Positions 4,239 to 24,388 of a DNA stretch of 64,000 bases are shown here, in pieces; within the stretch, counting starts at the first letter, position 1, and each line of letters opens with the position of its first letter. The notes below the pieces were generated by a model. That model ran no database searches. It had not been told where the DNA came from and worked only from the letters and a program-made list of their open reading frames with translations. This DNA is from Marinomonas sp. CT5 (GTDB lineage Bacteria > Pseudomonadota > Gammaproteobacteria > Pseudomonadales > Marinomonadaceae). Made by a program: the position numbers and the translations under genes. The stretch is taken from contig NZ_CP025572.1 in assembly GCF_018336975.1 (NCBI RefSeq), positions 1,264,560 to 1,328,559 of the forward strand. The letters are read 5' to 3'.

Positions 4239-6074
4239 ATGATTGATCGCTTGCATGGCAAGGGTATTAGCACCTTGTTGAAATTCAAAGTACCTCATTT
4301 GCGTTTTGGGCTTGTCGCTGTTTCTTTATTAAGCTCATCAATGGTTGCTCAGGCTGAAGTTGGCCCCTCAGCCCCTAGTCGTCCTAACATATTATTGATA
4401 ATGGCGGATGATTTAGGGTATTCAGACTTAAGTGCTTTTGGTAGTGAAATAAATACGCCAAATATTGATGCCTTGGCAGAACACGGACGTATTTTGACGA
4501 ATTTTCATACCGCGGCTGTGTGCTCCCCAACTAGGGCGAGTTTAATGACGGGGGTTGACCATCATTTAGCAGGCATCGGTAATATGGGTGAGGTTGTTGG
4601 TTTTAATATTGTTCAAAATAAACCCATTAATGCGCCGTGGGGAGCATCTAATTCCTATGATTTTGACAATATCCCTGAAGGCTATCATGGCCATATAAGT
4701 GAAAAAACCGCCACTATGTCTGAGTTACTTTCTGATTCTGGGTACCATACTTATATGGTAGGAAAGTGGCATTTAGCTTATGACGTGAAATCTCCCGATA
4801 AAGACCACAAACGCTGGTATCGTATTAATAAGAGTGCACTTCCTTATTCGCGAGGCTTTGAAAAAAGTTATGTCTTGGTTGATGGTGGAGGATCTCATTT
4901 TGCTCCAGCTGCCGTGCCAACCCCGCTTGATTTGACCATGTATGCTGAAAATGGTCGTGTATTTCCAGCCAAGTTTTTGCCAAAAGACTTTTACTCAACG
5001 GAGTTTTATACCAATAAGCTGATTGATTATATTGATTCGAATCATGGTGATGGCAAGCCTTTCTTTGCTTATGCTGCTTATACTGCTCCTCATTGGCCAC
5101 TACAAGCTCCGCAAGCTGACATTGATGCTCAGAAGGGCCGATATGATGAAGGATATGAAGTAGTTAGAGAAAAACGTATTGCTAGAATGAGATCCTTGGG
5201 ATTAATCACAGATGTGAATCATATTGCCGCTGAATCTGTTGGTCCAAAACGTTGGGAGGAATTAACGGAAGAGGAAAGACATAAAGAGTCAAAATACATG
5301 GAAATTTATGCGGCCATGGTTAGCAATCTGGATCGCCATGTAGGCAGATTGGTTCATCATTTGAAAGAGATTAATCAATACGATAATACTATGATCGTTT
5401 TTATGTCTGATAATGGCGCTGAAGGCGCGCCAGCTTTCATGTTGCCAATTCCTGGTACTAAAGTTGATAACTCATTAGCGAACATGGGAAAGCCGGGATC
5501 TGTTGTGGCATATGGACCTCGTTGGGCTGAAGTAAGTGCAGCACCTTTTCGTTTATTTAAAGGGTTTACTGGGGCAGAAGGCGCAACGGCATCGCCTTTA
5601 ATTGTGAAATTAAATGGTCAAAATGAACATAAGCCTAATTCAAATGCACGACTACAAGTGGTAGATATTTTACCTACTGTTTTAGAAGTCGCTGATGTAG
5701 ACATACCAACTAACACTTACAAGGGAAAAGAAATTTACCCACCTAAAGGCGTGTCTTTTTTATCTGCTTTAAAGGAATCAGGAAGTTTTACTCATGTCCA
5801 TGCGCAAGGTAGTGTGCTGGCCGATGAGCTAATGGGAGCAAGTTATCTAGTTCGTGGTAACTGGAAATTAAGTCAACAAGCACCTTTAGGTAAGACGCCT
5901 GTGTTTACAAAAGATGTTCCTTTTGCTTTGTACGATATCTCTACCGATCGAGGGGAGACAAAGGACTTGTCTGCTCAATATCCTGAGTTACTAGCTGATA
6001 TGAAAGAAGCCTTTAGAGAGTATGTTCGCCAAAATAAAGTTGTAGAACACGCGGCTTCTTATAACGGTAGATAA
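4239..6074 (+). CDS. Secreted arylsulfatase-type sulfatase (Cys-type)
   Basis: A type I sulfatase of 611 aa. It carries a signal peptide (cleavage after AQA, about residue 39), the metal-binding Asp pair in MADDLGYSD (57-58), and the formylglycine motif C-S-P-T-R at 95-99, where Cys95 would be converted to formylglycine. The second signature GKWHLAYD and the MSDNGAEGAP metal motif are also present. It should act in the periplasm or outside the cell, hydrolysing a sulfate ester. The size and motifs resemble bacterial arylsulfatases of the AtsA type, but the true substrate is unknown. A radical-SAM maturase follows after 14 bases. The ATG at 4239 gives a proper signal peptide; the in-frame GTG at 4227 is less likely. 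Confidence 0.9.
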   Translation: MIDRLHGKGISTLLKFKVPHLRFGLVAVSLLSSSMVAQAEVGPSAPSRPNILLIMADDLGYSDLSAFGSEINTPNIDALAEHGRILTNFHTAAVCSPTRASLMTGVDHHLAGIGNMGEVVGFNIVQNKPINAPWGASNSYDFDNIPEGYHGHISEKTATMSELLSDSGYHTYMVGKWHLAYDVKSPDKDHKRWYRINKSALPYSRGFEKSYVLVDGGGSHFAPAAVPTPLDLTMYAENGRVFPAKFLPKDFYSTEFYTNKLIDYIDSNHGDGKPFFAYAAYTAPHWPLQAPQADIDAQKGRYDEGYEVVREKRIARMRSLGLITDVNHIAAESVGPKRWEELTEEERHKESKYMEIYAAMVSNLDRHVGRLVHHLKEINQYDNTMIVFMSDNGAEGAPAFMLPIPGTKVDNSLANMGKPGSVVAYGPRWAEVSAAPFRLFKGFTGAEGATASPLIVKLNGQNEHKPNSNARLQVVDILPTVLEVADVDIPTNTYKGKEIYPPKGVSFLSALKESGSFTHVHAQGSVLADELMGASYLVRGNWKLSQQAPLGKTPVFTKDVPFALYDISTDRGETKDLSAQYPELLADMKEAFREYVRQNKVVEHAASYNGR

Positions 6075-6088
6075 GGTCGTTACTGAGG

Positions 6089-7330
6089 ATGATTAGTCAC
6101 AAGCTAATGGAAAGAATTAATCACTTCGGTGTAATGGTTAAGCCAAGTGGTTCAGTGTGCAATATTGATTGTACTTATTGTTTCTATTTGGAAAAAGAAC
6201 ACCTTTATCCAGAGCGAAAGAAGCAATGGCGTATGAACAATACCACGCTAGAAAATTACATCCGCGATCAAATTCAGTCTCAGCATGGTGATGTTATTGA
6301 TTTCGTTTGGCAAGGAGGTGAACCCACTCTGCTGGGAGTAGACTTCTTTCGCCAAGCAATCGCCTTCCAAGAACAGTATCGTGGTTATAAAACGGTAACG
6401 AATTCCCTGCAAACCAATGCTACCTTGCTTGATAAAGAATGGGTGTTATTTTTTAAAAAGCACCATTTTTTGATTGGCGTCTCAATTGATGGTGATCGAA
6501 TTAGTAATGATGCCTATCGCTTATCTAGGAAAGGGAAAAGTACGTTTGACGAGACCCTAAACGGTCTTGCGTTGCTCAAAAAATACAAGGTGGATTTCAA
6601 TACGTTGACCGTTGTGAATGCAGAAAACGTAAAACGACCACTGAATGTGTATGCATTTTTAAAGCGCATCGGTAGCCGATATATGCAGTTTATCCCTTTG
6701 GTAGAGCGAAAAGCGGTCGTTCCGGATAGTCACGGCTTAACTTTAATTCAGCCGAGGTTTGACGGTGAATCCAATCTCGCTGAATGGTCCGTTCCAGCTA
6801 AAGCGTATGGTAAGTTTTTGAATACGATTTTTGATCATTGGATACAAAACGATTTGGGTGAAATCTTCGTGATGAATTTTGAGCAAACCATGAGTCAGTT
6901 GGTTGGTCGCCCCGGAGCCTGTGTGTTCAGTGAAACTTGCGGTAATGGGTTAGCGATGGAATCTAACGGAGATGTGTATTCTTGTGATCACTATGTTTAT
7001 CCAGATCATAAATTAGGTAACGTTAATGAAACATCATTAATTGATCTAGTGAACCTACCGCAAAATCTTAAGTTTGGCGAAGATAAACGTCTTAATATCA
7101 GTATCGATTGTCACCCATGTGAGGTGCGCTCAGTGTGTCATGGTGGTTGTCCAAAGCACCGATTTGAGTCATCTAGTGATGGATTATTGAATCGGAACTA
7201 TCTTTGTGATGGCTTTAAATCACATTTTTCTCATGCTGTGCCGAAAATGTCGGAAACCATAGGTTTGTTAAGTCGACAATTGCCAATGAAAAAAATAAAG
7301 CAAGAGATAAAGCGAAGGTTCTATTCGTAG
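6089..7330 (+). CDS. Anaerobic sulfatase-maturating enzyme (radical SAM/SPASM)
   Basis: This 413-aa protein matches the anSME family, which oxidises the active-site Cys or Ser of sulfatases to formylglycine in the cytoplasm. The radical-SAM cluster motif is C24-x3-C28-x2-C31 (CNIDCTYC), followed by WQGGEPTLLG and GVSIDGD. The C-terminal SPASM region has many cysteines (ACVFSETCGNG, YSCDHYVYP, CHPCEVRSVCHGGCPKHR) for auxiliary Fe-S clusters. It lies directly behind its presumed client sulfatase in one operon. The ribosome site is poor (GAGG abuts the ATG), so translation may be coupled to the sulfatase gene. Confidence 0.92.
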   Translation: MISHKLMERINHFGVMVKPSGSVCNIDCTYCFYLEKEHLYPERKKQWRMNNTTLENYIRDQIQSQHGDVIDFVWQGGEPTLLGVDFFRQAIAFQEQYRGYKTVTNSLQTNATLLDKEWVLFFKKHHFLIGVSIDGDRISNDAYRLSRKGKSTFDETLNGLALLKKYKVDFNTLTVVNAENVKRPLNVYAFLKRIGSRYMQFIPLVERKAVVPDSHGLTLIQPRFDGESNLAEWSVPAKAYGKFLNTIFDHWIQNDLGEIFVMNFEQTMSQLVGRPGACVFSETCGNGLAMESNGDVYSCDHYVYPDHKLGNVNETSLIDLVNLPQNLKFGEDKRLNISIDCHPCEVRSVCHGGCPKHRFESSSDGLLNRNYLCDGFKSHFSHAVPKMSETIGLLSRQLPMKKIKQEIKRRFYS

Positions 7331-7819
7331 TTGGTAGCTTAAATGGCCGCCTATTTTGCAACAGAATCTTACCCATTCTAAGGTGTTTCAACGTTTTATA
7401 TCACACTTTTTATTGTTCGATCACATCGAATGGTTGATTCTGTTTAAAGGTTTTTTCTGAATGGTTGTAGTGGTTTATATTGGCTGTATCAACAGAAACA
7501 TAAATTCAGGCTTATGTATAAAGTGCTATTTCATATAAATATATTTTCATTTTTATTTTATCAATAAAAAACATTTTTCGTTTATTAAAGTACCTGTTTG
7601 TTTTTGAAATCAAGATATATTGAATGGCGATATTATTATTCGTTAATTTTATGATCATCCTTTTGACGGGCTTTTATATATGAATTCGGTTTTTTAAGTG
7701 AGTTAATTTGATTAATAAAAGTCTATGAAAATAACTAGTTTAATTATGGTTCTTTGGTATTGAAGAATCTCTTAATCAAAACATGATCCAATACTATTAT
7801 AAAAATTAGAGGTATAAAT
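7331..7819 (+). promoter_or_regulatory. Long promoter/leader region of the hydrolase operon
   Basis: 489 bases, very AT-rich. The first 150 bases contain the LysR-type operator and promoter module (7416-7481). The following 338 bases up to the ATG at 7820 would be an unusually long untranslated leader if that promoter is used. It holds only tiny frames (for example a 19-codon hydrophobic one at 7624-7683) that I do not count as genes. Confidence 0.6.
7416..7481 (+). promoter_or_regulatory. LysR-type operator and promoter module, copy 1
   Basis: A perfect palindrome TTCGAT-CAC-ATCGAA (7416-7430) contains the T-N11-A core of LysR boxes. It is followed by TTTAAAGG at 7443-7450 and a -10-like TATATT at 7476-7481. 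The 66 bases match copy 2 at 11890-11955 at 54 positions by my hand alignment. The -35 region is poor, as expected for an activator-dependent promoter. Confidence 0.75.
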
Positions 7820-8980
7820 ATGGCGTTATTTGAATACTTTCCCAATTATGTTTGGAACTTATCTGTTTCTATTGCATTAGGAAGCGGAGCCAAAATTGGC
7901 GAAGTTATTGATATGTGTAAGCCTTTACGCGAAGCCGCAGAAAATGGCGAAGATGCTGGGACAGCCGAATTTCTGATTCAGTGGGTCAATATGGCGGATA
8001 AGCTGATTGGACTGGCTGATGAAGATGAAGCCGCGGGGAATTATTTTTCGGCTGGTGCCAAGCTAAAGAGAGCGGCGCTGTATTTAATGGTGGCTGAGCG
8101 AATGCAAGGTCAAGGACATCCAAATCGCAAAGAAACTTGGGATAAAGCGCAAGAGACATTCCGCAAAAGTATTAGGCTCAGCAAAGATAATTGTGAGTAT
8201 GTAGAGGTGCCACTTGATAATGGCGGAACTATGCCTGCGTTGTATGTTCGAGCTGAAGGAGAGGGTCCTCACCCTACGGTCGTTTATTGTAATGGTTTGG
8301 ACAGTTGTAAAGAGATGCTCTATTGGTCAAATCTACCTCAAGCACTGGCTAAGCGAGGAATATCGACGCTGTGTGTTGATCAACCTGGTACTGGTGATAC
8401 ATTGCGCACTTACGGTTTGCCTGCGGTTTATAACAGTGAAGTTTGGGCATCCAAAGCGGTTGATTGGCTAGAGCAACAAGACGATGTAGATGTCTCCCGT
8501 ATTGGTATGACGGGAATTTCTTTAGGTGGTCATTATGCGCCTAGAGCTGTCGCCTATGAGCCAAGATTCGCAGCTGGTGCTGTATGGGGAGCAAATCATA
8601 ACTGGGCAGAAGTGCAGCAGAAACGCTTAAAGCGCGAAGGTGAAAACCCTGTTCCACATTATTGGGCGCATGTTATGTGGGTGTTTGGCGCAAAAGATAT
8701 GGACGATTTTTTTGTTAAAGCCGAAGGGATGAACCTAAATGGTGTGATGGAAAAAATTAAGGTGCCTTTCCTTGTGACTCATGGGGAGAAAGATCGTCAA
8801 ATTAGCTTAGATTACGCTTACCAAAGTTATGATCAGCTTATTAACTCACCGAATCGTGAATTTAAAATTTTTACTGAGCGTGAAGGTGGGGTTGAGCACG
8901 TTGGTGCAGACAATATGAGCTTTGGTTGTGATTACATTGCAGATTGGTTTGCGAAAACTTTTAACGGTAAAAGGGGGTAG
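7820..8980 (+). CDS. Alpha/beta hydrolase, C-C bond hydrolase type
   Basis: The 386-aa protein has a helical N-terminal region of about 130 aa and then an alpha/beta-hydrolase domain with the nucleophile elbow G-I-S234-L-G-G; Asp325 (HGEKDR) and His360 (GGVEHVG) complete the triad. This arrangement resembles 2,6-dihydroxypseudooxynicotine hydrolase and relatives, which split C-C bonds next to an aromatic ring without an oxyanion-loop motif of the lipase type. In this context it probably cleaves a 1,3-diketone or acyl side chain produced in the pathway. The start is supported by GAGG. It is first in a three-gene operon with the cyclase (6-base gap) and FAH genes. Confidence 0.8.
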   Translation: MALFEYFPNYVWNLSVSIALGSGAKIGEVIDMCKPLREAAENGEDAGTAEFLIQWVNMADKLIGLADEDEAAGNYFSAGAKLKRAALYLMVAERMQGQGHPNRKETWDKAQETFRKSIRLSKDNCEYVEVPLDNGGTMPALYVRAEGEGPHPTVVYCNGLDSCKEMLYWSNLPQALAKRGISTLCVDQPGTGDTLRTYGLPAVYNSEVWASKAVDWLEQQDDVDVSRIGMTGISLGGHYAPRAVAYEPRFAAGAVWGANHNWAEVQQKRLKREGENPVPHYWAHVMWVFGAKDMDDFFVKAEGMNLNGVMEKIKVPFLVTHGEKDRQISLDYAYQSYDQLINSPNREFKIFTEREGGVEHVGADNMSFGCDYIADWFAKTFNGKRG

Positions 8981-8986
8981 TCTGCT

Positions 8987-9766
8987 ATGGCTCGTCAATT
9001 TATTGATTTATCCATTTACCTTGAAAATGACGTGATAACCGATCCGCCTTTTATGCGCCCTGAAATCACCTATCAGACGCATGAAGAAACCGTGCCGGAG
9101 GCAAATCATTTTTTTCCTGGTGTTGGTGCGGATGAGTTCCCTGGAGGGCATGGTTTTGCAGCCGCAGAGACGGTTAAATTAACCACCCATAACGGAACCC
9201 ATTTGGATGCACCTTGGCATTTTCACCCGACGATGAATAACGGTGAAAGAGCGATTACCATTGACGAAGTGCCTTTAGATTGGTGTTTTCGTCCTGGGGT
9301 GAAGTTGGATTTTCGTCATTTCGAAAACGGTTATGTGGTTACCGCTGCGGATGTGGAAGCGGAATTAAAACGTATCGGTTATGAGTTGCAGCCAATGGAT
9401 ATTGTCTTGGTTAATACCGCCGCAGGTAATGCGCTAGGTGATCCAGACTTTGTCAATATTGGTTGTGGTATGGGTTACGAAGCGACTATGTATTTACTTG
9501 AGCGTGGCGTACGCGTCACAGGTACAGATGCTTGGTCTTGGGATGCGCCATTTAGTCATACGGCCAAACGCGTGGCGGAAACAGGGGATAATTCACTTAT
9601 CTGGGAAGGGCATAAAGCTGGTCGAGATATAGGTTATTGTCATTTGGAAAAACTGCATAATCTTGAAGCTTTGCCTCCCTTTGGTTACACCGTAGTGTGC
9701 TTTCCTCATAAAGTGCGAGGTGGTTCAGCCGGTTGGACTCGTGCTGTTGCTATTATTGATAACTAA
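8987..9766 (+). CDS. Cyclase-family (kynurenine formamidase-like) hydrolase
   Basis: This 259-aa protein belongs to the cyclase family (Pfam cyclase, kynurenine formamidase fold). The metal-binding signature H68-N-G-T-H72-L-D74-A-P-W-H78 is intact. Members hydrolyse amides, esters or lactone-like bonds with divalent metals, and several act in aromatic ring catabolism. Six bases separate it from the upstream hydrolase, so the two are co-transcribed. The exact reaction is not deducible; a hydrolytic step on a ring-opened product is the likely role. Confidence 0.85.
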   Translation: MARQFIDLSIYLENDVITDPPFMRPEITYQTHEETVPEANHFFPGVGADEFPGGHGFAAAETVKLTTHNGTHLDAPWHFHPTMNNGERAITIDEVPLDWCFRPGVKLDFRHFENGYVVTAADVEAELKRIGYELQPMDIVLVNTAAGNALGDPDFVNIGCGMGYEATMYLLERGVRVTGTDAWSWDAPFSHTAKRVAETGDNSLIWEGHKAGRDIGYCHLEKLHNLEALPPFGYTVVCFPHKVRGGSAGWTRAVAIIDN

Positions 9767-9807
9767 TTGAACTACTTGAAGTTATAGTCTTTTTGAGGAA
9801 TGAAATT

Positions 9808-10779
9808 ATGAAGTTAGCAACAATAGATAACGGCACCCGTGATGGCGCATTAGTGATTGTTTCTTGTGACGGTCAGTCTTATCTACCAGCGCCAGAAAAA
9901 ATACCTACATTACAAGTAGCACTGGATAATTGGTCTGAGAGCGAGCCTATATTGCAGGCTATTTTTCAACAGCTCAAAGATGGTAAAGGTATGAGTTCTG
10001 CCTCGTTAAATTATTTAGCGCCTTTACCTAGAGCATGGCAATGGCTAGACGGTTCTGCGTTCAAAAGTCATGGTGATTTGATGGATCAAGCATTTGGCTT
10101 TGAGCCAAAGCAACTGACTAAGCCTCTGATGTATCAAGGTATGTCACATCAATTTTTAAGTGCTACAGCAGATGTTCCTTTTATGAAAGAAGAGGATGGC
10201 ATTGATTTTGAAGGAGAATTTGCCGTCATTGTCGATGATGTTCCAATGGGAACGACGGCTGAGCATGCACTTAAGCACATTAAACTGGTTGTGTTACTTA
10301 ACGATTGGTCATTGCGCACAATTGCTATACCAGAAATGAAAACAGGCTTTGGCTGGGTGCAGGCAAAACCGGCTTGCTCTGTGGCTCCGGTAGCGCTCAC
10401 TCCTGATGAGCTTGGTACGGCTTGGTGTGATGGACGGGTACACCTTGATTTAGTGGTTGATTGGAATGGTAAACGTTTTGGTAAAGCATCTAGTGCTGAA
10501 ATGGGCGTTGGTTTCCATGAATTAATTGCCCATGCGGCCGCTACCAGAGACCTTTGTGCCGGTACTATTATTGGGTCGGGTACGGTCTCTAATGAAAATT
10601 ATCGAGAGATTGGATCAAGTTGTATTGCTGAGCGACGTGGTATAGAAACGCTAGATACTGGTGCCGCTAAAACGGCTTATATGTCATTTGGTGACCAAGT
10701 AAGAATGGAGGCTGTATCGGATGAGTCGTCCCATTTGTTTGGAACAATCGAGCAAACCGTTATAAAAAAAGCATTATAG
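9808..10779 (+). CDS. Fumarylacetoacetate hydrolase family protein
   Basis: The 323-aa product fits the FAH family, which hydrolyses C-C bonds in diketo acids or performs related hydratase or isomerase steps. The metal site is visible as FEGEFAVIVDD (the E-x-E pair) with LLNDWSLR supplying the following Asp, then GWVQAKPACS and GSGTVSN near the C-terminus. The length is typical of the bacterial homogentisate-type subgroup. ATG 9808 is chosen for its GAGGA ribosome site over an in-frame TTG at 9793. It ends the hydrolase-cyclase-FAH operon and is followed by a two-way terminator. Confidence 0.85.
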   Translation: MKLATIDNGTRDGALVIVSCDGQSYLPAPEKIPTLQVALDNWSESEPILQAIFQQLKDGKGMSSASLNYLAPLPRAWQWLDGSAFKSHGDLMDQAFGFEPKQLTKPLMYQGMSHQFLSATADVPFMKEEDGIDFEGEFAVIVDDVPMGTTAEHALKHIKLVVLLNDWSLRTIAIPEMKTGFGWVQAKPACSVAPVALTPDELGTAWCDGRVHLDLVVDWNGKRFGKASSAEMGVGFHELIAHAAATRDLCAGTIIGSGTVSNENYREIGSSCIAERRGIETLDTGAAKTAYMSFGDQVRMEAVSDESSHLFGTIEQTVIKKAL

Positions 10780-10840
10780 ATACAGTTTCTTATGAGCTTA
10801 ATTTGCATTAAGACTCTAAAGAAACTGGATTATATTTGCC

Positions 10841-10876: not shown

Positions 10877-10931
10877 GCCGTGGGTAAAAACTTTCTAAAG
10901 GCAAATTATGGCTTTCATGAATGGGCTTTAC

Positions 10932-11849
10932 TTACTCTATATCCATATTAATGGCCGCTTCTTTTAATGTATTTCGTAACCAAATTAGCCCTTCATCATT
11001 GTTTCTATATTGATGCCATTGGACACACTGTTTCATCGGTGGAATGTCAAAAGGTAAAGGCAATATTTTAAGAGGCCAAACTTTGGCCATTTTGGATGCT
11101 AATCTGGCATGGATGGTGGCGATATTCTCTGACCCTATTACTAATGCTGGCAATGAAGCAAAGCTAAATGTCGTGGCGATGACATGCCTTTCAATACCGT
11201 ATTTTTGTGCAAACGATGTTCCAAAAAAGTCTTTTTTTGTTGCTTCTGGACGCATTAGTACGTGACCTGCTGAAGCGTATTTTTCTGTGGTTAACTCTCC
11301 TTGCGCGATTTTGCTGTGTTTCCAGACAACACAAACAAACTCTTCTTCATAAAGTACTTCACTCGGGTGTTCGGTAGACATGAAGTCAGATGGAATGATG
11401 AGTAAGTCCGCTTTGCCTTGTTCTAGTTGTTCATGAGGATTATTTGCGACTTGAGCTAATAGTTGAAAACGAGCCGTACTTTTTTGTTTTCCAACGATTT
11501 CTAGCGTATGTGGAATAAATACTGTTTGGGTGTAATCAGAACAAAAAATACTAAAAATTCTATCTGTTGTTTGGGGATCGAAACTGGGTTGAACAAGGAT
11601 GGTGCTTTCAATGTTATTTAGCGCGTTACGAACATTGACTTTTAAACTTTCCCCTAAAGGCGTAATGATCATTCTTCGACCTATTTGTGTTAATAAGTCA
11701 TCTTCAAAATAATCTCTTAACCTAGATAGGGAATTACTTAGAGCGGAAGGGCTCATATTAAGTTTTTCTGCGCCTTTCGTAATACTCTGTTCGGTTAATA
11801 ACGTATCTAATGCCACCAGTAAATTCAAATCGAGCTTTTTAAAACGCAT
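10932..11849 (-). CDS. LysR-type transcriptional regulator of the island
   Basis: A full-length LysR regulator (305 aa). The N-terminal winged helix starts RFKKLDLNLLVALDTLL and continues through SPSALSNSLSRLRDYF; this opening is typical of the NodD/NahR subgroup, whose members sense aromatic ligands. The rest is the periplasmic-binding-like ligand domain. It is transcribed away from the DUF1302 gene. The palindrome TTCGAT-N3-ATCGAA in the shared intergenic region, and its second copy upstream of the hydrolase operon, are the obvious candidate binding sites. AAGG eight bases before the ATG supports the start. Confidence 0.9.
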   Translation of the reverse strand: MRFKKLDLNLLVALDTLLTEQSITKGAEKLNMSPSALSNSLSRLRDYFEDDLLTQIGRRMIITPLGESLKVNVRNALNNIESTILVQPSFDPQTTDRIFSIFCSDYTQTVFIPHTLEIVGKQKSTARFQLLAQVANNPHEQLEQGKADLLIIPSDFMSTEHPSEVLYEEEFVCVVWKHSKIAQGELTTEKYASAGHVLMRPEATKKDFFGTSFAQKYGIERHVIATTFSFASLPALVIGSENIATIHARLASKMAKVWPLKILPLPFDIPPMKQCVQWHQYRNNDEGLIWLRNTLKEAAINMDIE

Positions 11850-11889: not shown

Positions 11890-11955
11890 TTCGATAGTAT
11901 CGAATGGTTAATTTAGTTTAAAGGGTTTTTCTGAAAGATTTTGGTGATTTATATT
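11890..11955 (+). promoter_or_regulatory. LysR-type operator and promoter module, copy 2
   Basis: Perfect palindrome TTCGAT-AGT-ATCGAA at 11890-11904 with TTTAAAGG at 11917-11924 and TATATT at 11950-11955. It lies between the divergent LysR and DUF1302 genes, the classical position for a LysR operator. The -10 is 49 bases before the DUF1302 GTG start. Confidence 0.8.
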
Positions 11956-13614: not shown

Positions 13615-13631
13615 CTTTTTGGAGAATGACA

Positions 13632-16414: not shown

Positions 16415-16495
16415 ATGTTGATGATCTCTAAGAGATATGAAATTTATGGCTTTAAGGCTCTGACAAAACCGACCCTTATAAAGGGAGGTGAGTGA
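16415..16495 (+). CDS. Possible 26-codon upstream ORF overlapping the MFS start
   Basis: An ATG at 16415 (or in-frame 16421) opens a frame whose TGA at 16493-16495 shares its last base with the ATG of the MFS gene (TGATG). The predicted peptide begins MLMISKRYEIYG. The TGATG overlap is what translational coupling looks like, but the MFS gene has its own strong ribosome site inside this frame, and a frame this short can occur by chance. Confidence 0.25.
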   Translation: MLMISKRYEIYGFKALTKPTLIKGGE

Positions 16496-17658
16496 TGAGT
16501 TATCGCTTTGGATTCAAAGGCAATCTTGCTCTGATGGTTTCTCATAGTGCGGGAATGCTAGACCTTGTGGCCTTGCCTTTATGGGTTGGGGTTTTAGTTG
16601 CCTCATATCATTTTGATAGTCAGCAAGCGGGTGGCTTAGTCACCTTATTTTTAATTGGTGCTGTTTGCGCCAGCGTCTTAATCGCTCCTCGCTTTAAAAA
16701 ACTAAAGCGTCGCATGGTGGCAAGCGTTGGCTTTTTCATTTCAGGGTTATGCTTTTTCATCGCTTCTCAAACCAATGATTATGCACAACTGGCTGGATTG
16801 CATTTGGTGGCCGGTGTTAGTTCAAGTGCGGCATTAAGTATGGCACATGGCACGTTTGCCCGAGGAGAAAACCCACATCGTCTGTTTGCAATAGCGGGAC
16901 TGACTTTAGGCATTATGGCGTTTGTCTTTATGGGAGCAACGCCAAATATTACCAAAGTCGCTGGAGGACATTCATTGTTCATTATCTTTGGTGGCATTAT
17001 GACTTTTGCGGCTTTGGTTTGTGCTGTCGCTTTTCCATCATTGACGTTTGATCATGATGATAGTGGCAAGGCTAAATCAGTAGTAGTCAAAATTCCTTCT
17101 AGTGTTTGGTACGGCATAGTAGGGATTAGTTTAATGGCTGTCACTCAAGCCATGACATTTAGTTTCATGGAGCGCGTAGGTAATGATCGAGGCTTTTCGA
17201 CTGACTCAGTCACATTGGTTTTGGTTGGAGTAGCGTTGGTTAATATTGTCGCAGCCGTACTTGCTGGCATTTTCGAGAAACGTTTTTCCACTAAGTGGGT
17301 ACTGTTTTCAGGTCCAATACTACAAATCCTATTGTCAAATATCATCATGAAAGCGGATGGCTTTGTTTTCTATGCCGCGTCTTCGGTTTGCTTTGTGCCT
17401 CTGATGATATTCACTCATACCTTCGTTTTTGGTTTGTTGTCTCGTTTAGATCTGTCTGGCCGTGCTATGGCGGCTACGCCAGCAATGCTTATGATTGGCG
17501 CAGCAATTGGTCCAATTTTGGGTGGAACCATTATTAAATTTTTGGGCTATCCAGGTATTGGTATTGCCGCTTTAGTGTTCGGAACGGTGTCACTTGGGTG
17601 TTTTATTCGTGTTTTTCAACGCAGTTCAGCGGTTATCCAATCCGAGCGGTTGGCGTGA
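16495..17658 (+). CDS. MFS transporter
   Basis: A 387-aa integral membrane protein with about 12 hydrophobic segments, a positively charged loop (RFKKLKRR, about residues 63-70) between the second and third helices, and a central cytoplasmic linker, which together fit the major facilitator superfamily. Substrate cannot be told from sequence; within the dioxygenase operon it is likely to import the aromatic growth substrate or export an intermediate. AGGGAGG six bases before ATG 16495 decides the start over GTG 16492. Eight bases separate it from the YCF48 gene. Confidence 0.8.
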   Translation: MSYRFGFKGNLALMVSHSAGMLDLVALPLWVGVLVASYHFDSQQAGGLVTLFLIGAVCASVLIAPRFKKLKRRMVASVGFFISGLCFFIASQTNDYAQLAGLHLVAGVSSSAALSMAHGTFARGENPHRLFAIAGLTLGIMAFVFMGATPNITKVAGGHSLFIIFGGIMTFAALVCAVAFPSLTFDHDDSGKAKSVVVKIPSSVWYGIVGISLMAVTQAMTFSFMERVGNDRGFSTDSVTLVLVGVALVNIVAAVLAGIFEKRFSTKWVLFSGPILQILLSNIIMKADGFVFYAASSVCFVPLMIFTHTFVFGLLSRLDLSGRAMAATPAMLMIGAAIGPILGGTIIKFLGYPGIGIAALVFGTVSLGCFIRVFQRSSAVIQSERLA

Positions 17659-17666
17659 GGTGGTGA

Positions 17667-18752
17667 ATGTCTAAGCAAAACAACGTGGCCACTTTATCAT
17701 CTCGTTTATTAGGTCAGCTTGCTTTATTGGCTCTAATGACTCTGCTTCTTAGCCGAGTCGGAGGTGCTCATGCTGCAGTAGCCGATGCGATTGAGCGGCC
17801 TGCTATTCAGTCTAATTTAGGTGCTCATTCTGTTTTGATGTCGGTGGCCTCGATAGAAGGTCATTTTATTGCTGTTGGAGAGCGTGGCTTAATTTTACGT
17901 TCAGATGATGATGGTAAAAATTGGAGTCAGCTACCTTCTCCAGTCAGTGTGACGTTAACAGGGGTTGCCTTTACTGATGCTAAAAACGGTTATGCGATTG
18001 GCCATGGTGGCATTGTATTGCGCACCACTGATGGAGGTCAGCAATGGAAGGTGCAGTTAGATGGTCGTACCTTAGCTGCCGATCTTTTACTTAAAGCGCA
18101 AGCATCCAATGATGAAGAGGCGATTCATCAAGCTAAGTTATTGGTGTCCGATGGTCCAGATAAACCTTTTTTAGATATGTTGTTACTGGGCCGTGATCAC
18201 TTAATTGTGGTGGGAGCCTATGGTCTTGTTTTGGAAACGAAAGATGGTGGTCTGACTTGGGACTCTTGGATGGACCGCATTGAAAACTATTTGGGATTGC
18301 ATTTATACAGTATTCGTAAGCAAGGTAATCGTATTCTTATTGCTGGAGAGCAAGGATTTGTCGCTCTTTCAGTCGATGATGGCCAGTCTTTTGAGACCCT
18401 TGAAACGCCATATGAGGGCAGCTTCTTTACCGCTCAATTAGCAGGGAACAGTGAGGTAGTGTTAGCTGGTTTGCGTGGCAATACTTTTGTGTCTTCAGAT
18501 AATGGCCAAGATTGGAAGAAAATCAAAAACCCAATCAGTGCCTCTATCATGTCATCCTTTATTAATAAGAGTGGTCAAATCATTTTCGCCAATCAAGCTG
18601 GTATTTTATTAGGTTTGACTGCCAATCGATTGGTTCCACTCACTCGTAAACGCCTTCCTCCACTTACCAACTTGATAGAAAAGTCTAATGGGAATGTACT
18701 TGCTTTAAGCATCCATGGACCAGTTTCCATTGATGTAGGAGATATGAAATGA
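17667..18752 (+). CDS. YCF48-like beta-propeller protein
   Basis: The 361-aa protein has a signal peptide (cleaved near AHA|A, residue 36) and repeated sorting-domain-like blades such as GLILRSDDDGKNW, GIVLRTTDGGQQW and GLVLETKDGGLTW. These mark a YCF48/BNR-type propeller, the fold of the photosystem II assembly factor. In heterotrophic bacteria such proteins often lie next to MMPL pumps with DUF1302 and DUF1329. It probably acts in the periplasm as a partner of the pump. Its stop overlaps the pump start by ATGA, suggesting equal synthesis. Confidence 0.8.
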   Translation: MSKQNNVATLSSRLLGQLALLALMTLLLSRVGGAHAAVADAIERPAIQSNLGAHSVLMSVASIEGHFIAVGERGLILRSDDDGKNWSQLPSPVSVTLTGVAFTDAKNGYAIGHGGIVLRTTDGGQQWKVQLDGRTLAADLLLKAQASNDEEAIHQAKLLVSDGPDKPFLDMLLLGRDHLIVVGAYGLVLETKDGGLTWDSWMDRIENYLGLHLYSIRKQGNRILIAGEQGFVALSVDDGQSFETLETPYEGSFFTAQLAGNSEVVLAGLRGNTFVSSDNGQDWKKIKNPISASIMSSFINKSGQIIFANQAGILLGLTANRLVPLTRKRLPPLTNLIEKSNGNVLALSIHGPVSIDVGDMK

Positions 18753-21142
18753 AACACCATTCGTCTACCTCTGCGTCTCCAAAAGACCAATTTGATCCAA
18801 ATACAGGGTCCATTGTTGAGCGAGTATTATTTAATAATCGTTTCATCGTTATTATCACTTGTTTTTTGTTGACCGCTATATTTGGCTGGCAAGCGACCAA
18901 GTTAACAATCAATGCCAGTTTCGAAAAAACTTTACCGACACATCAATCTTATATTGAAAACTATTTAACCTATGAAAAAGAGCTAACCGGGTTAGGTAAC
19001 GCATTACGAATTGCGGTCGTCAGCCCCAGCGGTACGATTTATGATCAAGACTATCTAGAGTTACTACGCCAATTAAGCGAAGAGGTATTTTTACTTCCAG
19101 GTGTCGATCGAGTTCAGATGAAATCTTTATGGACGCCTTCAACTCGATGGATTGGGGTTACCGCTGAAGGCTTGGATGGTGGTCCGGTCATTCCTGAAAA
19201 TTACGATGGTTCTCCAGCCAGTTTGCAAGAATTGAAAGCCAATGTTGCTCGTTCTGGGCAAGTGGGTCAATTGATTGCGGCAGATGAAGAATCCACCATT
19301 ATTTACATGCCATTGTTAAGTCAAGATGCAACAGGAGAAGCGCTAGATTACGCAAAGTATTCTGAGGCTCTTGAAAGGCTGCGTGCCAAGTATCAAGCAA
19401 AAGGGCTGGAAATTCATATCACCGGTTTTACCAAGGTAATGGGTGACTTGATTGAAGGGGTACAGGCGGTTTTATGGTTTTTCGCCTTAGCCGTTGTGAT
19501 CGCGACTATTATGGTGTTTTGGTATACCCGTTGTGTGCGTTCAACCTTTTTAGTTGTGTTCGCTTCTTTGTTGGCTGTGGTATGGCAGCTGGGGATTTTG
19601 CCAACTCTCGGCTATGTCTTGGATCCATATTCAATTTTGGTGCCTTTTCTAGTATTTGCCATAGGTATGAGCCATGGCGCACAGAAAATGAATGGCATTA
19701 TGCAAGATGTTGGTCGTGGCTTTGACAAACTTGTTGCAGCACGTTTTACCTTTAGAAGGTTGTTTCTTGCTGGGCTTACTGCTTTGTTAGCCGATGCCGT
19801 AGGGTTTGCCGTCTTGTTGGTGATTGATATTAAAGTGATTCAAGAGTTAGCTATTGCCGCCTCTATTGGGGTTGCTGTTTTGATTTTCACTAACCTCATT
19901 CTTCTACCTATTATGCTGTCTTATGTGGGCGTTGGTGAAGAAGCAGCGCAGCGCAGTGTCGTCAATGATATTGATCCGACTAATGTAAAAAAGATACCTG
20001 CCTTATGGGTATTCTTAGATAAGTTCACTCAGCGTAAATGGGCAACGGGGGCTTTAGTTGCCGGAACTTTGCTTGCTGTTGGGTCATTCTCGTTAAGTAC
20101 TCAGTTAAAAATAGGTGACCTTGATCAAGGCGCTCCTGAGTTACGTCAAGACAGTCGTTATAACCAAGACATTGCTTTTATGAACCAGCATTACGGCGCG
20201 TCTAGTGATGTTATGGCAATCATGGTTAAGACCCCTGATGGTGCATGCTCTCAGTACGATACGTTGAAAAAAATTGATGTTCTTGAGTGGCAATTACGAC
20301 AGCTCCCTAGTGTGGAATCGACTAACTCTTTGGCTTTACTTTCTCGTCGTGTGCTGTCTGGTTTAAATGAAGGGAACCCCAAATGGTACGAGTTTTTACC
20401 AAATCAAAGTATGTTGAATTACATCACAGCAGGTGCGCCACGGGGGTTGTACAACAGCAGTTGTAATCTGTTGACACTTTATGTCTATTTGCAAGATCAC
20501 AAAGCAGACACTTTAAGCAACATTGTTAATCATGTAGAAGCTTTTGCTAAAGATAATAATACCGATGATGTGCAGTTTTTATTGGCGGCGGGCAGCGCCG
20601 GTATTCAAGCGGCGACAAATATTTCCGTAAAAGCGGCTTGGTATCAAATGCTGTTCCTTGTCTATGGCGCTGTTGCTTTGCTTTCCCTAATTACTTTTCG
20701 GTCATTGAAGGCCGTTGTTGTCGCGTTACTTCCCTTGATGCTGACCTCCATTATGGTGGAGGCCTTGATGGTGCAATTGGGTATGGGGGTGAAAGTCGCC
20801 ACCTTGCCTGTTATTGCTTTAGGGGTCGGTATTGGCATCGATTACGCTTTATACATTTTGTCCATTACTTTGGTCGGATTGCGCCAAGGTACTAGCCTGT
20901 CCCAGTCTTATCTAAGAGCACTCAATTTCACCGGTAAAGTCGTTATGTTAACCGGTGTCACCTTGTCTGTGGGAGTCATTACTTGGGTTGCCAGTCCGAT
21001 TAAATTTCAGGCAGATATGGGTCTGTTACTAGCCTTTATGTTCATTTGGAACATGCTCGGAGCGTTGATTCTGTTGCCTGCTCTGGCGCATTTTTTACTC
21101 AAGCCAAAATTCGCGAACAGCAATGACTTCAACGAGGAGTGA
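18749..21142 (+). CDS. MMPL/RND-superfamily transporter
   Basis: A 797-aa inner-membrane protein with the RND layout: one N-terminal helix, a large periplasmic loop (about residues 55-230), a block of helices including the sterol-sensing-like segment, a second periplasmic loop, and a second helix block. It belongs to the MMPL/HpnN-like branch that moves lipids and other hydrophobic molecules. VFAIGMSHGAQKMNG and GVGIGIDYALYILS are the characteristic TM4 and TM10 regions, the latter with a membrane Asp likely used for proton coupling. With DUF1302, DUF1329 and YCF48 it forms a probable trans-envelope route. Confidence 0.87.
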   Translation: MKHHSSTSASPKDQFDPNTGSIVERVLFNNRFIVIITCFLLTAIFGWQATKLTINASFEKTLPTHQSYIENYLTYEKELTGLGNALRIAVVSPSGTIYDQDYLELLRQLSEEVFLLPGVDRVQMKSLWTPSTRWIGVTAEGLDGGPVIPENYDGSPASLQELKANVARSGQVGQLIAADEESTIIYMPLLSQDATGEALDYAKYSEALERLRAKYQAKGLEIHITGFTKVMGDLIEGVQAVLWFFALAVVIATIMVFWYTRCVRSTFLVVFASLLAVVWQLGILPTLGYVLDPYSILVPFLVFAIGMSHGAQKMNGIMQDVGRGFDKLVAARFTFRRLFLAGLTALLADAVGFAVLLVIDIKVIQELAIAASIGVAVLIFTNLILLPIMLSYVGVGEEAAQRSVVNDIDPTNVKKIPALWVFLDKFTQRKWATGALVAGTLLAVGSFSLSTQLKIGDLDQGAPELRQDSRYNQDIAFMNQHYGASSDVMAIMVKTPDGACSQYDTLKKIDVLEWQLRQLPSVESTNSLALLSRRVLSGLNEGNPKWYEFLPNQSMLNYITAGAPRGLYNSSCNLLTLYVYLQDHKADTLSNIVNHVEAFAKDNNTDDVQFLLAAGSAGIQAATNISVKAAWYQMLFLVYGAVALLSLITFRSLKAVVVALLPLMLTSIMVEALMVQLGMGVKVATLPVIALGVGIGIDYALYILSITLVGLRQGTSLSQSYLRALNFTGKVVMLTGVTLSVGVITWVASPIKFQADMGLLLAFMFIWNMLGALILLPALAHFLLKPKFANSNDFNEE

Positions 21143-21147
21143 GGAGG

Positions 21148-21510
21148 ATGACGTTGACCGAGAACATGATTGCGCTTTGTCATATTGATGATCTTAAAGA
21201 AAGCGAAACAAAAGGCTTTTTAGAAAATGAGGCCGGGCAGGACTTGTTGTTCGTCGTGAAATTTAAAGGGGCATTTTATGGGTGGCGAAATGCGTGTCCT
21301 CATGTAAATGGTGCACCAATGGCGTGGCGCAAAGACGCTTATATGGATGCTAAAAAGCAACACATTGCTTGCCATGCACATGGTGCTTTGTTTGAAGCAG
21401 ACACTGGCTTGTGTATTCAAGGGCCGTGCCTCGGTAAGGCATTAAATAAAATCCCTATCTATGTAGACCCGAATGGCATGATTTCCGTTTTACTAAAAGA
21501 CATTAACTAA
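21148..21510 (+). CDS. Rieske [2Fe-2S] protein (ferredoxin type)
   Basis: The 120-aa protein consists of one Rieske domain. The cluster ligands are C50-P-H52 and C75-H-A-H78, with a longer than usual insert (AWRKDAYMDAKKQHIA) between them. It would carry electrons in the cytoplasm, but no dedicated reductase is encoded in the window and its partner oxygenase is not obvious. The start is uncertain: ATG 21148 uses the GAGGAG eight bases upstream; GTG 21139, overlapping the pump stop, is the alternative. Confidence 0.82.
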   Translation: MTLTENMIALCHIDDLKESETKGFLENEAGQDLLFVVKFKGAFYGWRNACPHVNGAPMAWRKDAYMDAKKQHIACHAHGALFEADTGLCIQGPCLGKALNKIPIYVDPNGMISVLLKDIN

Positions 21511-21542
21511 TCGTACATATAACAAAAATAAGGAGTAATTAA

Positions 21543-22673
21543 ATGGCTGCTGTAAATAAAGTATTGGTCATTGGTGGTGGTTTTTCTGGTATGGCTGCCG
21601 CCATAAAAATGCGTAGTCATGGCATTCAGGTTGATCTTGTTGAGATAGATCCAGAATGGTGTGAATTGGGAGCCGGTATCAGTATTAATGGCGCATCTAT
21701 GCGTGCATTAGAAGATCTTGGTTTGTATGAACAAGTTGTTGAGCAAGGTTGTGTGACGGATGGTGTGTCCATTCACTTAGCTCATGGGCCTTTGGTTATG
21801 GAGCTACCAACACCGAGTCCTGTTGGTTCATCGGTGGGAGGCAGTGGCGGTATTTTTCGCCCAACTCTTGCGCGAATTATGTCTAATGCGACTGTTGAAT
21901 CTGGTGTTGATGTTCGTTTGGGCTGCACCTACACCAATATGCAGCAGACAGACTCTACTATCACGGTAAGCTTCACGGATGGAAGTACCCGTGACTATGA
22001 TCTTGTTGTCGGGGCGGATGGGGTTCATTCTAAAATTCGCAAAGAATTTTTCCCAGAAATTGCGGATCCTGAATACATAGGTCAAGGCGTGTGGCGTGCC
22101 ATTATGCCGCGTCCAAAAGAAATTAACCGTGTCACTATGTGGATGTCAGACCATCTTAAATTGGGAGTGAATCCAGTGTCAGATACTCATATGTATATGT
22201 TCATTACGGAAGATCGTCCGACAAAAGAGCATATTGATAAAGCCACGTGGCCGAGTGTTTTTGCAGGTTTGATGGAGCATTTTCCTAATCCAATTATAGA
22301 AGCATTGATCCCATGTGCATTTAAAGAGGAAGCGAATATTGACTACCGCCCGTTGGCGAACTTGTTAGTTAAGACTCCTTGGAACAAGGGTCGCTTAGTG
22401 ATGATTGGGGACACGATTGCCGCGACGACTCCCCACCTTGCTTCTGGCGCTGGAATCGGTATCGAAAGTGGCATTGTATTAGCGGATGAGTTGGCTGCTA
22501 ACAATGATATCCAAGTAGCGCTTGATAAGTTTCATGAACGTCGTTGGGAGCGTTGCCGCATGGTGGTCGAAAATTCGGCTCGTTTATGTCATATCGAAAT
22601 AAATGGTGGTGATAAAGCCGAACATTCAAAAATCATGGGGCAGTCATTAATGGCGTTAGCTGAGCCAATTTAA
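21543..22673 (+). CDS. FAD-dependent aromatic monooxygenase
   Basis: A 376-aa class A flavoprotein hydroxylase. The dinucleotide fold GGGFSG is at 11-16, the DG motif at 159-160 (GADGVHSKIRK) and the GD motif at 289-290 (LVMIGDTIAATTPH). These three motifs define the salicylate or p-hydroxybenzoate hydroxylase family, which uses NAD(P)H and oxygen to hydroxylate phenolic rings. It would supply the diol for the extradiol dioxygenase of the same operon. The start has AAGGAG upstream. A strong terminator follows, so this is the last gene of the main transcript. Confidence 0.85.
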   Translation: MAAVNKVLVIGGGFSGMAAAIKMRSHGIQVDLVEIDPEWCELGAGISINGASMRALEDLGLYEQVVEQGCVTDGVSIHLAHGPLVMELPTPSPVGSSVGGSGGIFRPTLARIMSNATVESGVDVRLGCTYTNMQQTDSTITVSFTDGSTRDYDLVVGADGVHSKIRKEFFPEIADPEYIGQGVWRAIMPRPKEINRVTMWMSDHLKLGVNPVSDTHMYMFITEDRPTKEHIDKATWPSVFAGLMEHFPNPIIEALIPCAFKEEANIDYRPLANLLVKTPWNKGRLVMIGDTIAATTPHLASGAGIGIESGIVLADELAANNDIQVALDKFHERRWERCRMVVENSARLCHIEINGGDKAEHSKIMGQSLMALAEPI

Positions 22674-22683
22674 CGCTTTGGTG

Positions 22684-22716
22684 GGCAGTGTGAAGCTTAT
22701 GATCACTGCCTTTTTT
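22684..22716 (+). terminator. Intrinsic terminator after the monooxygenase gene
   Basis: GGCAGTG (22684-22690) pairs with CACTGCC (22704-22710), followed immediately by TTTTTT. It separates the dioxygenase-monooxygenase operon from the cupin and SDR genes. Confidence 0.85.
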
Positions 22717-22750
22717 AAAAGGTTTGTTTGTCCTCTTAGAGAGAGGTTTT

Positions 22751-23329
22751 ATGAGTTTTCCTGATATTTACCGTGTAGTAACTGGTCATGATGAACAGGG
22801 CAATGCCATTATTTTAGAAAATGGCCCACTCAATACAGTGATGGATTTAGAGGCTGTTCCAGGTACTAGGTTTCATGAAGTTTGGAATACGAGCGAAACG
22901 CCCGCCCATATTACTTATACACAAGAAGATCCAACTCTCGGGCCAGTTGTATTACCACCAATGCAGTCTGGGACTAGAATTCGATTTGTCGATGTTCCAC
23001 CTGATACTGAGGAATTTTTGACTCAGGGAAAAGACAAAATGAAAGCGATGTTTTCGACCGTTGGTGATGAAGGCGCTTCGACGGTAAAAGAAGATTCTCC
23101 TCATCCTCTGATGCATCGTACTGAGTCAGTGGACTACGGTATTGTGATTGAAGGTGAACTGACTTTGATTGTTGACAAAGATGAAGCCATTTTAAAACCA
23201 GGTAGTGTGGTTGTGCAGCGTGGTACGAATCATGCCTGGGCGAATCGGTCAGGAAAAATGTGTCGTGTGCTATTCATTTTAGTGGGTGGGCAGTATGACG
23301 AATGCTTGGCAGAGAGCTTATCTCAGTAA
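22751..23329 (+). CDS. Cupin-domain protein
   Basis: The 192-aa protein ends in a cupin_2 barrel (about residues 110-180; SVDYGIVIEGELTLIVDKDE, then KPGSVVVQRGTNHAW). The first motif lacks the usual His pair of metal cupins, so it may bind a ligand rather than catalyse oxidation. Proteins of this type commonly stand beside short-chain dehydrogenases in aromatic and ether degradation clusters, as here with the SDR 90 bases downstream. ATG 22751 is preferred over an upstream in-frame start at 22724 because GAGAGG lies at the right distance. Confidence 0.75.
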   Translation: MSFPDIYRVVTGHDEQGNAIILENGPLNTVMDLEAVPGTRFHEVWNTSETPAHITYTQEDPTLGPVVLPPMQSGTRIRFVDVPPDTEEFLTQGKDKMKAMFSTVGDEGASTVKEDSPHPLMHRTESVDYGIVIEGELTLIVDKDEAILKPGSVVVQRGTNHAWANRSGKMCRVLFILVGGQYDECLAESLSQ

Positions 23330-23419
23330 AGTATCATGCGATGAAACTCCTCACCTTCCCAAATAACATTTTGGTTTGTTTTTTGGCCCTTCTGCGAACT
23401 CATTATTAAGGACTGTCTA

Positions 23420-24388
23420 ATGCATGTGTTAATCACGGGAGCAAACGGTTTTGTTGGTAAAGCACTAGCACATCATATTCTTTCTCAAGGGGGGATTGGA
23501 GAAAGTGAGGTTTCGCGTTTGACCTTGTTGGATCGTCAGTTTAATTGGGAACTCACGGAGAATTCATCGAATATATTGGTGGAGCAACATAGTGGTGATC
23601 TGGTAGATAAGCAATGGTTTAAAGATAAACTGGAGCGCTTCTCTCTCGATGTTATTTTTCATCTGGCCAGTATTCCCGGAGGTTTGGCGGAAAAAAATGA
23701 TGAACTTGGCCGTCAAGTAAATATTGACGTGACGATGAGCTTACTTGAGATCTGTAAAGCACAAACAGAATCGCTAGGACTTAAACCGACATTGGTTTTT
23801 GCGAGTAGTATTGCGGTATTTGGCTCCATGCCAGAGTTGGTCACCGACGATACAGCATTGAAACCTCAAATGAGTTATGGTGCTCATAAAATTGTTGGAG
23901 AGGTAATGATTGATGACTTTAGTCGTCGTGGTTGGATTGATGGTCGATCTTTACGCTTACCTGGGGTCTTAGCTCGCCCTTCAGCAGAAACCGGACAAAT
24001 GTCGGCTTTTCTAAGTGATATTATTCGCGAAGTGTCTCAAGGGCATGCTTTTGTTTGTCCAATGTCGGCTCAAGCAAAAACATGGTCATCATCCTTACCA
24101 AATATTGTTGAAAACCTTATTCACTGTGCTGTCGTTGAGGACACTCAATTAAACAAAGGGCGAACTTTTACCTTGCCAACGCTGTGTTTCAGTATGGAAG
24201 AAATGGTCGATGCTATTGGTTTGGTTTATAAGCAAAACGCGCGTGAGTTGGTTCGCTACGAGCCAAATTCAATAATAGAAAACTTGTTCGGACGTTTTCC
24301 ACCACTGGAAACACCCTATGCGGATGAGTTGGGATTCAAACATGATGGGGATTTGAATAAGCTAGTAAAGCGAGCGTTATTAACATGA
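23420..24388 (+). CDS. NAD-dependent epimerase/dehydrogenase (DenD-like extended SDR)
   Basis: This 322-aa extended SDR has the NAD motif TGANGFVGKAL at 7-17 and the catalytic SYGAHK (Tyr-x3-Lys), with ASSIAVFG providing the Ser. Overall it resembles D-erythronate dehydrogenase (DenD) and related sugar-acid dehydrogenases. In this island it may oxidise a hydroxy intermediate rather than a sugar acid; I leave the substrate open. It is the last plus-strand gene of the island and converges on the unknown membrane protein gene. Confidence 0.78.
   Translation: MHVLITGANGFVGKALAHHILSQGGIGESEVSRLTLLDRQFNWELTENSSNILVEQHSGDLVDKQWFKDKLERFSLDVIFHLASIPGGLAEKNDELGRQVNIDVTMSLLEICKAQTESLGLKPTLVFASSIAVFGSMPELVTDDTALKPQMSYGAHKIVGEVMIDDFSRRGWIDGRSLRLPGVLARPSAETGQMSAFLSDIIREVSQGHAFVCPMSAQAKTWSSSLPNIVENLIHCAVVEDTQLNKGRTFTLPTLCFSMEEMVDAIGLVYKQNARELVRYEPNSIIENLFGRFPPLETPYADELGFKHDGDLNKLVKRALLT

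Follow-up and report, generated by a model that had tools for sequence, protein, structure and literature searches.

A putative fde-type flavonoid A-ring cleavage cluster with a candidate flavonoid sulfatase and its maturase in Marinomonas sp. CT5

What does a marine bacterium degrade with a sulfatase encoded beside a set of aromatic ring-opening enzymes? The question is raised by a ~20-kb gene island of Marinomonas sp. CT5, whose limits lie at about 4.0 and 24.4 kb of the window, that is, of the whole 64,000-nucleotide stretch analysed here (positions 1,264,560-1,328,559 of a single-contig 4.76 Mb genome). Profile searches found all genes of the island present and open at the coordinates given below, so the genes named by the first-pass annotation are real, and a Rieske ferredoxin (21139-21510), a LysR regulator and an MFS transporter join the set as members that it did not list. 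The gene block is a unit and its grouping is not by chance. Gene content, homology, synteny, linkage and shared promoter boxes, from which every reaction, localisation, regulator-box pairing and substrate named below is deduced, lead us to read it, with a probability of roughly two in three, as a cluster of the fde type for meta-cleavage of the flavonoid A ring, to which a dedicated flavonoid sulfatase and its maturase have been added.

Once the sulfatase pair and the genes for DUF1302, DUF1329, YCF48 and MMPL proteins are set aside, the remainder matches the fde naringenin operon, and the earlier statement that no described pathway has exactly this set has to be withdrawn. The reference operon, which by its gene order we take to be that of Herbaspirillum seropedicae, was compared by tblastn, with letters assigned by operon order and matches covering <40% of the query left out; ten of its 11 genes (R, B, C, D, E, F, G, H, I, J) have homologues in the island at 39-72% identity. 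Every island gene lies on the forward strand except that of the FdeR-like LysR regulator (10932-11849, reverse strand; PF00126/PF03466; 48% identical to the gene at the fdeR position). Upstream of it stand an FdeB-like alpha/beta hydrolase of the C-C hydrolase, DHPON-hydrolase-like type (7820-8980; motif GISLG; 56% to the fdeB-position gene), with 2,6-dihydroxypseudooxynicotine hydrolase 2jbw as its best PDB match, an FdeG-like cyclase-family hydrolase (8987-9766; PF04199; motif HNGTHLD; 72% to fdeG) and an FdeI-like fumarylacetoacetate hydrolase-family (FAH) protein (9793-10779; PF01557, PF18288; 51% to fdeI). On its other side follow, with identities to the genes at the respective positions, an FdeC-like type I (VOC) extradiol dioxygenase (15314-16267; 60%), an FdeF-like MFS transporter (16492-17658; PF07690; 51%), the FdeD-like Rieske ferredoxin (PF00355; CPH...CHAH; 45%), an FdeE-like flavin adenine dinucleotide (FAD) monooxygenase, hereafter FMO, proposed as flavonoid 8-hydroxylase (21543-22673; NF005313 above cut-off; 54% over 374 residues), an FdeH-like cupin (22724-23329; PF07883; 62%) and an FdeJ-like short-chain dehydrogenase/reductase (SDR)/epimerase-family dehydrogenase (23420-24388; PF01370; 39%). 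The Rieske gene, placed directly upstream of the FMO gene, is diagnostic. The H-H-E residues of the dioxygenase are invariant in 11 aligned sequences, and by analogy we presume H159-H222-E269 to be its triad. GISLG, HNGTHLD and CPH/CHAH, as well as CSPTR and CNIDCTYC mentioned below, are what we take to be the family motifs of the respective proteins. Taken together, homology assigns the island firmly to the fde-type family.

Relatives of the cluster were collected as the best 80 of 466 loci from a genome-contig scan, mostly of soil bacteria and with no Herbaspirillum among them. Gene counts in these loci, like those in the neighbourhoods of G749, G766, G794 and G678 described below, also leave out tblastn matches covering <40% of the query. 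A search for FdeE-type homologues likewise returned no Herbaspirillum name among the best 120 of 5653, one of these 120 records carrying the source name 'naringenin degradation protein FdeE'.

The combination of DUF1302, DUF1329, YCF48 and MMPL proteins with extradiol chemistry could also bring to mind the catabolism of steroids or other hydrophobic rings, with steroid sulfates as substrates, and the alpha/beta hydrolase does give a weak NCBIfam match to HsaD. That match reaches 20.6 bits against a cut-off of 400, ten genes match the fde operon at the identities given above, and the literature joining these DUFs, MMPL and steroid terms shows, among the matches listed and as far as their text was available, no occurrence of DUF1302 or DUF1329; we therefore reject a steroid pathway as having almost no probability.

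What sets the island apart is its first pair of genes. The sulfatase (4239-6074, within a GTG-start open reading frame at 4227-6074; PF00884) carries CSPTR at residue 99 of that frame, which makes it a Cys-type S1 enzyme, and its N-terminus, judged by eye, has a signal-peptide-like stretch. It matches the Pseudomonas aeruginosa arylsulfatase AtsA (1hdh) over its full length (E 4.8e-113, 382 bits), the next distinct PDB match being 7all, 'Arylsulfatase', at 231 bits. AtsA is listed in S1_4 by the SulfAtlas paper (PMC5066984), and from this best match the window enzyme would be AtsA-type and S1_4-like. A sulfatase for sulfated polysaccharides was also considered and rejected, as the S1_19 carrageenan-type match scores 123 bits against the 382 for AtsA. 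The gene that follows encodes a radical-SAM anaerobic-type sulfatase maturase (6089-7330), which scores 491.6 bits for TIGR03942 against a cut-off of 349.45 and contains the CxxxCxxC motif as CNIDCTYC. The best-matching named proteins come from Marinomonas, at 90% identity for the dioxygenase and, in M. posidonica, 78% for the sulfatase; the best arylsulfatase in a plasmid search was 43.5% identical among the best 15 of 66 matches.

Whether the sulfatase belongs to the pathway was addressed by its distribution in 48 Marinomonas genomes, own included, in which cluster-bearing genomes were those with a dioxygenase at least 77% identical (18) and the sulfatase was counted at 71% or more (10); one genome with a 52% dioxygenase in an fde-like cluster (G012) and one with a weak match (G021) were not counted among the 18. 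All ten of the sulfatase-bearing genomes fall within the 18 (Fisher p = 6.7e-6, uncorrected for kinship). Around the dioxygenase, the 13 core genes, meaning all except sulfatase, maturase and cyclase, are found in 14 of the 17 other cluster-bearing genomes, the SDR match being only 35% identical in three of these 14, with G039, G018 and G005 as exceptions. The first-pass proposal of a single catabolic island coupling desulfation, ring opening and envelope transport is upheld. In the nine relatives with the sulfatase the maturase follows it after 20-107 bp, and the pair lies 35-546 bp from the nearest fde gene in seven of them and 3.4 kb away in G028.

Beyond this genus survey, seven of 390 genomes matched the sulfatase at E 1e-125, namely three Marinomonas, G749, G766, G794 and G678. 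In G749, from another family of the same order, the 13 core genes, maturase and sulfatase stand in the order seen in most Marinomonas relatives, and the cyclase was not found in the 40 kb examined. The sulfatase lies between cupin and cyclase in G766 and after the cyclase in G794, and P. taiwanensis (L079) and P. resinovorans (L119) carry a 44-45% identical sulfatase inside an fde-type cluster, so that the enzyme occurs in such clusters of two other marine genera and of Pseudomonas at other positions. No fde gene was seen in the 20 kb examined around the sulfatase of G678.

Several observations pull the other way. A window-type sulfatase is missing at E 1e-60 from eight of the 18 cluster-bearing Marinomonas genomes, and in G039 a distance of 12.3 kb separates the pair from the nearest fde gene detected. 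The stretches examined of G766 and G794 showed no maturase, for which reason their Cys-type sulfatases would need another activator. Among the 80 mostly soil loci a sulfatase match of any kind within ~10 kb occurs in only five, of which three matches are weak (23-36%), and a maturase match in none. The absences and the distance in G039 would suit a sulfatase that is a general scavenger of aryl sulfates, serving sulfur supply or zosteric-acid-like sulfates, and that lies beside the flavonoid cluster yet outside its pathway; AtsA, the closest characterised relative, was itself purified from cells in sulfate-free medium according to a reference title in PMC5066984. Such a role is nevertheless improbable, given that every genome of the genus in which the gene was found also has the cluster, that the two lie near each other in nine of ten, that in other genera it sits inside the operon at other positions, and that a degenerate LysR-type box precedes it in 11 of 11 regions. 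Moreover, seawater is rich in sulfate, so that sulfur scavenging would be of little value.

A second S1 sulfatase, 24% identical to the window sulfatase, lies near the cluster in G013 and G018, two genomes without a window-type sulfatase. Its best PDB matches are carrageenan-type sulfatases, and we exclude it from the pathway because it occurs in 11 of the 48 Marinomonas genomes, eight of the 18 with an fde cluster and three without. In the window genome this type is found ~57 kb before the window (G000:C1:1205811-1207121). In G013 the S1 sulfatase, TRAP/TAXI-type transport proteins and a SulP-type permease adjoin the fde cluster (L055:6509-12855), and in G018 they lie ~8 kb beyond the LysR gene. 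Elsewhere in the window genome, a second AtsA-like sulfatase (47%), a second anaerobic-type maturase and a LigB-family dioxygenase occur within 9 kb (G000:C1:3008767-3017029) and are perhaps another aryl-sulfate catabolic set.

Phylogenetic analysis placed the 15 fde-linked sulfatases within one clade (support 100/99; 28 rows, including 13 taken from the best 120 database homologues, whose context was unseen). As the linked set was found partly by similarity to the window sulfatase, the unity of this clade is not fully independent. AtsA itself was not among the tree sequences. Outside the clade fall 19 other rows, with context examined for G678 only, and one sulfatase (G135) that lies ~21 kb from an fde-type dioxygenase is nonetheless placed outside. 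The 36% sulfatase of a Halieaceae fde-type locus falls outside as well, which counts against the proposed reading.

Regulatory sequences were then compared, with box patterns chosen after viewing the alignments. The palindrome TTCGATNNNATCGAA has exactly two exact matches in the 64 kb where 0.01 would be expected: TTCGATCACATCGAA (7416-7430, forward strand), 5' of the hydrolase-cyclase-FAH unit, and TTCGATAGTATCGAA (11890-11904, forward strand), in the LysR-DUF1302 intergenic region. All 18 such intergenic regions compared, from the window, 16 Marinomonas and G749, contain the palindrome without mismatch. Ahead of the sulfatase, each of 11 regions compared (window, nine Marinomonas, G749) has a degenerate form, TTCGATNNNATNAA, the window copy being TTCGATTTCATCAA (4131-4144, forward strand). 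This sulfatase box departs from the palindrome at two positions, and at that stringency 3.2 chance matches are expected in the window, which counts against it; alone it would not be significant there, and its conservation carries the weight. A further adverse point is that a search near LysR detected the palindrome neither in the Herbaspirillum cluster nor in 54 of the 55 other loci with a LysR gene; since it does not carry over to these lineages, we do not claim a universal FdeR box. In the island, the FdeR-related LysR would control three transcription units through related palindromic boxes, and these shared boxes speak for co-expression of the units.

The order of events in the proposed pathway can be outlined as follows. 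A sulfated flavonoid would cross the outer membrane through the DUF1302 barrel, and in the periplasm the formylglycine arylsulfatase with its predicted signal peptide, once matured by the enzyme encoded next to it, would remove the 7-O-sulfate. DUF1329, MMPL/YCF48 and the MFS transporter (FdeF) would carry and import the aglycone, on which FdeE with the FdeD Rieske protein would hydroxylate C8 to give the 7,8-catechol, a product that cannot arise as long as O7 carries a sulfate. FdeC would then open the A ring, and FdeB, FdeG, FdeH, FdeI and FdeJ would degrade the opened chain. Because a sulfated O7 must be freed before a 7,8-catechol can form, desulfation as the first step is chemically expected.

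Published work, as far as its text was available, fits such a substrate. FdeE converts luteolin, apigenin and diosmetin, with activity correlating with the C5 and C7 hydroxyls (PMC11303751); for IfcA, the monooxygenase of an isoflavone cluster, the reaction seems to be prevented by methoxylation of the 7-hydroxyl or by a sugar on C7 or C8 (PMC11069340); and the 7-sulfates of luteolin, apigenin and diosmetin are described from eelgrass leaf surfaces (PMC6389981). We strongly infer a sulfated flavonoid as the substrate, and the seagrass flavone 7-sulfates (the luteolin, apigenin and diosmetin 7-sulfates of eelgrass) are its likely natural form. Sulfated flavonoids are chiefly products of angiosperms. 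The sulfated aromatic from marine plants or algae foreseen by the first-pass annotation is therefore plausible as to plants, algae being a less likely source than seagrasses or salt-marsh plants. M. posidonica is documented as seagrass-associated, and in the text available of its genome paper no aromatic, sulfatase or flavonoid terms were found among the five looked for.

Two results sit uneasily with a flavonoid substrate. No protocatechuate 3,4-dioxygenase reaches the cut-off in the genome, which leaves disposal of the B ring unexplained; four LigB-family genes are present. The GD motif of the FMO (residues 289-302; window 22407-22448) reads GDTIAATTPHLASG, with Ala in place of His, a replacement shared by 18 of the 24 FMO-type matches in a set of 22 neighbourhoods. 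Among the 80 loci, the 12 commonest motif types, 73 rows in total, all retain the His. This altered motif, together with only 54% identity to the FdeE-position protein, could mean that the fde-type A-ring pathway serves another (acyl)phenol, such as a different sulfated polyphenol, a chromone or an isoflavone, much as ifc diverged to isoflavones: IfcA is restricted to isoflavone aglycones in spite of its fde-resembling cluster, according to the available text of PMC11069340. We regard this as unlikely, since the FMO, the Rieske protein encoded next to it and the dioxygenase belong to the FdeE, FdeD and FdeC types and eelgrass is documented to carry 7-sulfated flavones that have the right A ring (PMC6389981).

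On the flavonoid reading, a wider picture may be sketched tentatively, at somewhat less than an even chance: a distinct arylsulfatase clade evolved into flavonoid 7-O-sulfatases giving access to the A-ring pathway, with a flavonoid-sensing LysR in control, and spread among plant-associated marine Gammaproteobacteria (Marinomonas, Neptunomonas-like, Marinobacterium-like) as a counter to the sulfated-flavonoid defence of marine flowering plants, recurring in Pseudomonas. A Vibrio copy of the clade sulfatase also exists (context unseen).

The envelope and transport genes occur in many fde-type clusters of mostly soil bacteria. DUF1302 is found in 36 of the 80 loci, YCF48 in 35 and MMPL in 36. A homologue of FdeA, for which tblastn gave no match in the window at E 1, is found in 12 of the 80 and together with DUF1302 in none; as FdeA is not universal, it was not treated as defining fde-type clusters. 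The island's DUF1302 protein (12004-13614; PF06980), a predicted outer-membrane beta-barrel and the proposed channel replacing FdeA, has an AlphaFold model of mean predicted local distance difference test (pLDDT) 75.7 with porin/AlgE-type barrels as best PDB matches, and the model of the DUF1329 LolA-superfamily protein (13626-14993; PF07044; pLDDT 70.9), a proposed periplasmic carrier, matches the DUF1329 protein 4z48 and LolA3 9tp6. The YCF48-type beta-propeller protein (17667-18752; PF14870) and the MMPL/HAE3 RND transporter (18749-21142; PF03176) complete the set. In the G005 neighbourhood (L046-L047) the best DUF1302, DUF1329 and MMPL matches cover only 22%, 10% and 6% of the proteins and an FdeA-like protein (30%) is present, possibly a channel swap.

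The island is flanked by a nitroreductase gene (3262-3915) and a hypothetical gene (24421-24933). A nitroreductase match at E 1e-60 is present in 33 Marinomonas genomes, and in 27 of these the two genes adjoin, their matches lying 55-175 bp apart. The exceptions comprise three with the fde cluster between the two genes (the window, G046, G024), one with another gene set at this place (G036), one with a 1.2 kb gap (G007) and one, G028, in which the genes are widely separated. By eye, the left flank in the window resembles the empty-site sequence beside the nitroreductase. G031, also a single-contig genome, has a closed junction at 2.78 Mb and the cluster at 1.77 Mb. No mobility gene was identified in the block. 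Most simply, the block would have moved from site to site as a whole. Its more variable parts are the sulfatase pair and the unit of hydrolase, cyclase and FAH genes. Neighbourhood comparison, named beforehand as a means of exposing unrelated and independently mobile units, revealed none in the core, which is found as a set at chromosomal positions that vary between species; we reject an assembly of independently mobile parts on this conservation across genomes and sites.

Some further observations may be recorded. The nitroreductase/hypothetical-gene junction (window 3916-4010 and 24389-24420) looks like an insertion hotspot. At this junction the G036 set (L173-L174) spans ~20 kb and, by eye, looks like one for aromatic catabolism; further genes of catabolic appearance adjoin the fde cluster of G024. 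In the Halieaceae/Halioglobus metagenome-assembled genomes L125 and L141 the cyclase (86-89%) and FAH protein (65-66%) are identical to the window genes at 8987-10779 well above other genes there, hinting at a recent transfer of this module. At window 27221-27895, a single open reading frame carries DUF6500 followed by a fosfomycin glutathione-transferase-like domain (171.4 bits against a curated cut-off of 180); fosfomycin resistance is not claimed.

Sulfated flavones on eelgrass leaves are described as antimicrobial or antifouling in the available text of PMC6389981. If the proposed pathway is true, the island would supply a genetic basis for marine bacteria disarming and eating such compounds, a sequence marker for sulfated-flavone use and a natural-substrate hypothesis for an arylsulfatase clade. 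The literature joining flavonoid with seagrass, sulfatase or bacterial terms shows no bacterial sulfated-flavonoid gene cluster in the titles and abstract openings of the matches listed, which is weak evidence that none is described, as subscription journals are mostly uncovered.

Comparison with known systems places the island as follows. With AtsA the window sulfatase shares an alignment from residue 51 to 612 of 615, CSPTR and the conserved blocks of catalytic residues, and it differs in its N-terminal extension with the signal-like stretch, its maturase partner and its fde-linked clade. The ifc cluster of Variovorax sp. V35 for daidzein, likened by the description available in PMC11069340, also has an FAD monooxygenase, a VOC dioxygenase, a DHPON-hydrolase-like hydrolase and a cupin; IfcA is 36.3% identical to FdeE and isoflavone-specific, whereas the window FMO stands at the higher value given above. 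With the fde operon of H. seropedicae the island shares the preserved adjacency of the Rieske and FMO genes (D-E). Unlike that operon, it is without an FdeA homologue and has DUF1302 with DUF1329, YCF48 and MMPL; its MFS, YCF48 and MMPL genes stand between dioxygenase and Rieske gene, its homologues of B, G and I are set apart as a unit of their own on the upstream side of the regulator, and sulfatase and maturase, neither of which matched in the Herbaspirillum fde stretch, are added. The new part is an integrated and probably co-regulated AtsA-type sulfatase with its radical-SAM maturase, set upon a known fde-type pathway.

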